Positions 40,519 through 40,697 of a stretch of 64,000 nucleotides of DNA are shown piece after piece (the stretch's first letter is position 1; every line of letters begins with the position of its first letter). This DNA comes from Natronolimnobius sp. AArcel1. GTDB taxonomy: Archaea > Halobacteriota > Halobacteria > Halobacteriales > Natrialbaceae. The DNA lies in assembly GCF_011043775.1 (NCBI RefSeq), contig NZ_JAAKXY010000002.1, forward strand, positions 682,001 through 746,000, read 5' to 3'. The translations under genes were made by a program, and so were the position numbers. The notes beneath the pieces were generated by a model that was not told the origin of the DNA, did no database searches, and saw nothing but the letters and a program-made list of their open reading frames with translations.

Positions 40519-40533
40519 GCGAGCAACGTCGTT

Positions 40534-40635
40534 CGAAAGACGTTTTACGTCTTTCGTGACTGAGCGAATCTCTGATTCGCGATGTCCGCGAAACCGTTTG
40601 GTTTCGCGTGATGACGAGACGCCGGAGGCGTCTCG
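40534..40635. repeat. Array of four consecutive perfect hairpins
   Basis: Four stems follow each other with no mismatch. (1) CGAAAGACGT / ACGTCTTTCG, loop TTT, 40534-40556. (2) GCGAATC / GATTCGC, loop TCT, 40564-40580. (3) CGCGAAACC / GGTTTCGCG, loop GTTT, 40587-40608. (4) CGAGACGCC / GGCGTCTCG, loop GGA, 40615-40635. Spacers are TGACTGA, GATGTC and TGATGA. The stems share geometry (7-10 pairs, 3-4 base loops, a CGA at or near the outer end) but differ in sequence. It lies between two convergent genes. No known element type is recognised. Confidence 0.85.
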
Positions 40636-40697
40636 AACCACAAGCGAACCCGACGAGAAAACGGTACGTGGGCTGGATCAGTGGCCACTCGCATCGA

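Follow-up and report, generated by a model that had tools for sequence, protein, structure and literature searches.

The array of four hairpins that we studied in the window, a stretch of 64,000 nucleotides from Natronolimnobius sp. AArcel1, is probably a non-autonomous mobile DNA cassette built of paired hairpins, which would act as single-stranded DNA (ssDNA) and whose arms would be kept perfect by template switching. It looks like parasitic DNA that moves and persists in folded form and not like an RNA gene. Table 1 gives the positions of the cassette, its parts and its surroundings.

Table 1. Features of the four-hairpin cassette and its flanks in the window.
Feature	Position	Strand	Description and basis
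Small membrane-protein ORF, 57 aa	40345-40518	+	just upstream of the cassette; translation, Pfam, congener comparison
Left remnant of host repeat R31	40519-40528	+	GCGAGCAACG; directly behind the stop codon of the small ORF; empty R31 copies
Whole cassette, four-hairpin form, 112 bp	40529-40640	+	TCGTTCG...CGAACCA; ends common to three unrelated hosts, compared with empty sites
Hairpin S1, outer pair, left	40534-40556	+	10 bp, CGAAAGACGT-TTT-ACGTCTTTCG; direct reading; homologues in 63 cores
Spacer TGACTGA	40557-40563	+	nearly invariant, TGACTGA in 57/59 cores
Probable inner cassette (S2+S3)	40560-40611 (boundaries approximate)	+	placed in the two-hairpin spacer, TGA^TGA; two- versus four-hairpin states
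Hairpin S2, inner pair, left	40564-40580	+	7 bp, GCGAATC-TCT-GATTCGC; direct reading; missing from the two-hairpin form
Spacer GATGTC	40581-40586	+	family GAKGTCC; core comparison
Hairpin S3, inner pair, right	40587-40608	+	9 bp, CGCGAAACC-GTTT-GGTTTCGCG; direct reading
Spacer TGATGA	40609-40614	+	sole spacer of the two-hairpin form; core comparison, class-wide pattern
Hairpin S4, outer pair, right	40615-40635	+	9 bp, CGAGACGCC-GGA-GGCGTCTCG; direct reading
Right part of host repeat R31	40641-40673	+	CAAGCGAACCCGACGAGAAAACGGTACGTGGGC; dispersed repeat of 31 nt, identity of up to 97% to copies in other genomes

An earlier note on this DNA had described four perfect stems of 10, 7, 9 and 9 bp at 40534-40635, and direct reading of the sequence agreed with it on the stems, the loops and the spacers. 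What that note missed was the full extent of the element (40529-40640) and the fact that it is a dispersed repeat. The cassette ends form an inverted repeat that matches at 6/7 bases (TCGTTCG / TGGTTCG). The near-invariance of TGACTGA has to be read with the core search pattern in mind, which itself permitted few variants of the fixed parts. The note had also judged the stems to be beyond chance, and folding a 115-nt stretch as DNA bore this out with z = -8.1 on the plus strand and z = -8.4 on the minus strand, where none of 200 dinucleotide shuffles was equal (0/200). For RNA folding of 181 nt we obtained z = -4.1 and -5.1 relative to shuffles. The idea that palindromes clustered here by chance, in a spacer rich in GC, has the high GC content in its favour and nothing more; with z below -8 and well over 1000 matches in 112 genomes its probability is practically nil.

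The earlier note had suggested a covariance-model search of haloarchaeal genomes for the four-stem unit. With a model built from 12 copies we found the cassette in 112 of the 117 Natrialbaceae genomes, with 1292 hits including partial copies, a median of 11 and a maximum of 29 per genome. The array is thus a dispersed repeat, as the note had listed among its options under the name of a new repeat class. When 61 genomes were searched at the DNA level, the array (query bases 199-312) recurred repeatedly: copies in its own genome and in one other (G033) were 82-84% identical over the full or nearly the full length, matches elsewhere were weaker, and the longer matches showed about 72-87% identity between copies. 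The fixed parts of the core read GTCGTT-S1-TGACTGA-S2-GAKGTCC-S3-TTGATGA-S4-AACCAC and the stems are variable. A shorter core with S1-TGATGA-S4 only reaches further. The pattern for this two-hairpin form, which fixes GTTCGR, the gap length and YCGTGATGACGA and demands no pairing, matched in 174 of 242 Halobacteria genomes; a reversed control pattern gave 0 matches in every genome listed. Among the matches listed, 91 of 103 distinct ones form the hairpin even though pairing was not demanded, and some of the other 12 resemble coding sequence. No annotated gene lay under the match in the 13 plasmid records that contain one (one of these records is unannotated), and no contig in the phage and viral collections matched the cassette. 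Many copies are old, being located at the ends of orthologous genes in different genera, and every host type has a core lineage of its own, so that jumps from host to host are rare; both points weigh against the mobile-cassette reading. In two places (L037 3192-3400 and L050 2062-2270) we saw tandem arrays with N at the junction; these are probably assembly artefacts caused by the palindromes.

We found identical left and right cassette ends in three unrelated hosts, and mostly the cassette sits in or beside a host hairpin. The first, host A, is the hairpin at the right end of TnpB elements, retrieved by a search with the 74-nt 3' end of a tnpB gene; the gene was recognised as TnpB by PF07282 (E = 6.5e-23). 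This hairpin is empty, GCCTCGGGG-CTTGA-CCCCGAGGC, at seven loci (L160, L163, L165, L170, L178, L179, L182), holds two inner hairpins at five (L161, L162, L174, L175, L189), four at one (L164) and six at two (L158, L159). The inserted lengths were 4-5, 58-62, 109-114 and 160-164 nt; the scan for them covers both strands and its counts were not used. The two-hairpin form measures about 60-70 bp. Host B is a hairpin, CGAASTTTTGCKCTG^CGGGCGC..., right behind stop codons. Of 101 genomes, 60 contain its motif (against one control match among the matches listed), and the host hairpin was seen empty, with two and with four hairpins. Comparing filled with empty sites, we observed no target duplication in either host A or host B (GGGG^CTTGA and CTG^CGG, respectively). 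The third host, R31, is the one in the window, where it reads GCGAGCAACG^[TCGTTCG...CGAACCA]^CAAGCGAACCCGACGAGAAAACGG, and its empty copies read GAGCGAGCAACG^CGAGCGAACCC or GAGCGAGCAACG^CGAGCGAACCCGACGAGAAAAAGG. As the junction in the window is one or two bases off the empty copies, the lack of a target duplication is less exact here than for hosts A and B.

Some further features of the hosts were noticed on the way. R31 (CTTTTTAGCGTAGATTTTTGGAGGAG...GAGAAAAAGGTACGTGGGC) is a dispersed 3'-end repeat whose T and A tracts pair as a closing stem, and several copies lie directly behind stop codons. At L198, L201 and L206 the final codons of the preceding gene flank it or are repeated in tandem with it (e.g. 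GGCAGGTCGTCGAGCGGACGCCGCTGGC), which looks like a duplication of the gene end together with R31. A 19-bp perfect palindrome at L288 from position 1501 (CGAAGTTTTGCTCTGCGGGCGCGCC...) carries the post-stop motif on both strands, a symmetric version of host B. Other TnpB right ends have a different hairpin (L168, L169, L176, L180, L186), and one of them, L180, contains an unrelated twin-hairpin insert with a GACCATTCGAG spacer that is missing from L176.

The arrays of different size are also nested. The S2-S3 pair occupies what is the spacer, TGA^TGA, in the two-hairpin form. At L138, L158 and L159 S2 itself houses one more pair, again with this type of spacer (GAGGTCA or GAGGCCA), and at L296 and L297 related pairs in reverse orientation interrupt host B at GGCAAAA^CTTCG. 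The empty, two-, four- and six-hairpin states of the TnpB hairpin differ by steps of about 50-57 nt, which suggests that arrays grow through pairs of hairpins inserted one within another. From these sequence comparisons we read the two-, four- and six-hairpin arrays as related by nested, recursive insertion; single cases may have gone in the opposite direction, by loss. In a genome of another family (G040, locus L016) the outer hairpins S1 and S4 are the same and the inner pair in the TGATGA spacer is different (GTCAGAACG, GCCAGAAATC), which indicates that this spacer receives different cassettes.

The earlier note had observed that structure is kept while sequence varies and had taken this as a sign of selection on the fold, in RNA or single-stranded DNA. 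The observation held, with compensatory changes in 14 of 35 pairs (12 sequences); the RNA reading of it did not. Across the 63 cores, 1866 of 1951 cells in the stems were Watson-Crick pairs, 28 were G-T and 30 A-C, and the stems are 95-97% Watson-Crick overall. The tRNAs of the same genome served as a control and gave 660 Watson-Crick pairs, 31 G-T and 0 A-C, a difference from the cores with a Fisher p = 7e-8, which is indicative only since the cassette copies are related to one another. The class-wide two-hairpin set showed 702 Watson-Crick, 7 G-T and 5 A-C pairs. G-T is plainly tolerated no better than A-C in the cassette stems, and this balance argues that the pairing is kept as DNA and not as RNA; selection on RNA was rejected on this ground. 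In known systems the TnpB 3' hairpin is transcribed as omega RNA. A structured RNA selected for its fold, either as a small RNA or, for copies at TnpB right ends, as an extended omega RNA, would account for the strong compensatory variation, for an RNA fold better than that of shuffles and for the TnpB 3' hairpin being one of the hosts. We nevertheless regard it as improbable, because G-T is not above A-C on either strand, no Rfam family matches in the window, there are hosts besides the TnpB ends, and the loops are triloops, with GNA on either strand, and not RNA tetraloops. The words resembling C/D boxes, to which the earlier note had drawn attention, turned out to be the fixed spacers of the cassette. 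A box C/D sRNA was rejected as these RUGAUGA- and CUGA-like words come in the order CTGA...TGATGA and not C-D'-C'-D, and there is no G-U excess.

The loops point in the same direction as the stems. Out of 178 triloops 83 were GNA and 44 TNC, together 71% where 12.5% would be expected under equal use, and the closing pair was C-G in 177/178. Every TNC loop reads GNA on the opposite strand, and d(C-GNA-G) forms an unusually stable DNA mini-hairpin. When loops were compared, the shared mass was 53 for the reverse complement, 1 for the reverse and 11 for the complement. At the 3' ends of orthologous chaperonin genes (L069 and L072) three of the four loops are exact reverse complements and the stems are identical. 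The host hairpin can flip its loop as well: the empty TnpB right-end loop is CTTGA in L160 and L163 and its reverse complement TCAAG in L173 and L183. Arms made uniform and inverted loops are the marks by which template switching has been described (PMC8794818; PMC8604942). GNA loops and loop flips in place fit ssDNA hairpins combined with template switching. The hairpins reported in PMC8794818 share perfect arms, block compensatory changes and loop inversion with the cassette; they concern a mutational process in RNA genes, whereas here it acts on a mobile DNA repeat. An array of double-stranded palindromes bound by a protein, as in REP/BIME sequences with gyrase or a nucleoid protein, would likewise be constrained at the DNA level, strand-symmetric, intergenic and multicopy. 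A binder of double-stranded DNA would need a fixed arm sequence, however, whereas the arms vary widely with only the pairing and the spacers kept, and the loops flip freely, so that we give this explanation little credence.

We also considered the position of the arrays relative to genes. A 57-aa ORF without a Pfam match precedes the cassette in the window, its stop codon ending ten bases ahead of it; the neighbour on the other flank is a convergently oriented HTH_10 regulator whose N-terminal domain is HVO_2928. The syntenic locus of a congener contains neither the ORF nor the array and has about 49 bp in place of some 420 bp. The difference between the two loci, about 420 bp, thus exceeds the cassette, and the comparison does not resolve its insertion at this particular site. 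For type-B arrays the upstream gene was co-oriented in all 15 cases with called neighbours, and in a set of 24 arrays the distance from stop codon to core was nearly always 13-19 nt; the one exception in the regular-expression scan, L069, also fits with 16 nt in the gene model. A terminator or stabiliser of mRNA 3' ends that was repeatedly recruited to gene ends would explain this regular spacing and co-orientation, the location of type-B arrays behind a TTTT tract, and the 10 nt between stop codon and array in the window. The T tract, however, belongs to the host repeat, which often occurs without the cassette, type-A copies in TnpB ends are found in both orientations to their neighbours, and the congener lacks the array; we therefore consider such a role unlikely. 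A terminator specific to convergent genes, one of the functions raised in the earlier note, was rejected because the orientation of the downstream gene is mixed in the type-B arrays (11 same, 4 convergent). The array is inserted into 3'-end repeats and is not the terminator as such.

For the mobile cassette that we favour, the comparisons show a basic unit of two hairpins with a short spacer (TCGTTCG-S1-TGATGA-S4-CGAACCA), present with constant ends and without target duplication in unrelated host repeats. Its spacer contains a second pair (S2-S3) in the larger arrays, and S2 harbours a third one in a number of copies. The following mechanism may be proposed. The acting form is presumably folded ssDNA, i.e. 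hairpins with very stable GNA loops, and insertion may take place at hairpins exposed on the lagging strand, with an enzyme supplied in trans that cuts and joins at the hairpin bases. Template switching of the polymerase within each palindrome would keep the arms perfect and flip the loops, and could thereby produce the same fold with different sequence without selection on RNA. The most likely candidate for the enzyme would be an HUH/Y1 transposase of the IS200/IS605 type. Transposases of the Y1 kind act on ssDNA hairpins and leave no target duplication, and for these reasons they are favoured here. The number of arrays correlated with the number of Y1 transposases (Spearman 0.32, p = 5e-4, uncorrected for genome size or phylogeny). 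The link is weak: seven genomes with at least 14 arrays had no Y1 (Y1_Tnp) match, and neither cassette ends nor cassette-type hairpins flanked any of the ten tnpA genes examined. A Y1 transposase as a required resident enzyme was rejected, given the weak correlation and these seven array-rich genomes.

Among known elements the nearest kind is SMR-A, a class of small mobile repeats of Haloquadratum walsbyi (HqIRS42, HqIRS43 and HqIRS55), the mobilisation of which was called 'enigmatic' and the enzyme for which was unknown (Dyall-Smith et al. 2011; PMC3119063). SMR-A elements are about 110 bp long with inverted ends, occur in many copies, make no target duplication, have no transposase of their own and insert into the near-terminal palindromes of IS605-type elements (PMC3119063). 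The four-hairpin form in the window has a corresponding length and the two-hairpin form is shorter; the cassette likewise has terminal inverted repeats, inserts without duplication and uses the TnpB right-end hairpin, in addition to other hosts. Its copies are less alike than those of SMR-A, for which identity is commonly >95%, and its arms vary freely. It also differs by its explicit two, four or six nested hairpins and by its post-stop-hairpin and R31 hosts. Since the identity is lower and the comparison was made by described features and not by sequence, we call the cassette SMR-A-like and do not file it as a member.

PATEs, or palindrome-associated transposable elements (PMC3119063), resemble the cassette in being geneless, in having palindromes near both ends, in lacking target duplication and in their relation to IS605-type elements; they have no inverted ends, in contrast to the cassette, and some cassettes are hosted by PATEs and by TnpB elements. 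The bacterial REPIN/BIME elements, for which RAYT (TnpA-REP) is the mobilising enzyme (PMC3116915, PMC8266576), are also paired palindromes of about 100 bp, intergenic and multicopy, and are likewise presumed to act through an ssDNA hairpin and a Y1 enzyme in trans. A REPIN consists of two inverted copies of one REP, whereas S1 and S4 of the cassette differ in sequence and nested insertion is the rule. Membership in this group was rejected because of the unlike S1 and S4, the lack of a GTAG tag in the cassette ends and spacers, and the seven array-rich genomes without a Y1_Tnp match. A MITE shares its inverted ends with a resident transposon and usually makes a target duplication; here there is no duplication and the ten tnpA loci lack flanking cassette ends. 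Integron attC sites go with an IntI integrase and paired R/L boxes; between the hairpins here there are no cassette genes. In the part of the literature that was searched we found neither a nested anatomy of hairpins nor post-stop hosts nor evidence of this kind at the DNA level.

A more far-reaching and tentative reading is that recursive hairpin insertion is a class-wide archaeal process. A dedicated ssDNA enzyme might put twin-hairpin cassettes into hairpin loops and spacers, including those of the cassettes themselves, and might so build branching trees of hairpins at gene ends and in the genes of TnpB guide RNAs.

Haloarchaeal repeats whose movement was enigmatic in 2011 are now provided with an anatomy, precise ends and empty sites, which makes the question of their movement testable. 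Abundant compensatory change in perfect stems is usually taken as proof of RNA structure; here DNA hairpins together with template switching explain it better, and the comparison of G-T with A-C pairs separates the two explanations. Finally, insertions into the terminal hairpin of TnpB elements have a bearing on changes in their guide RNAs.
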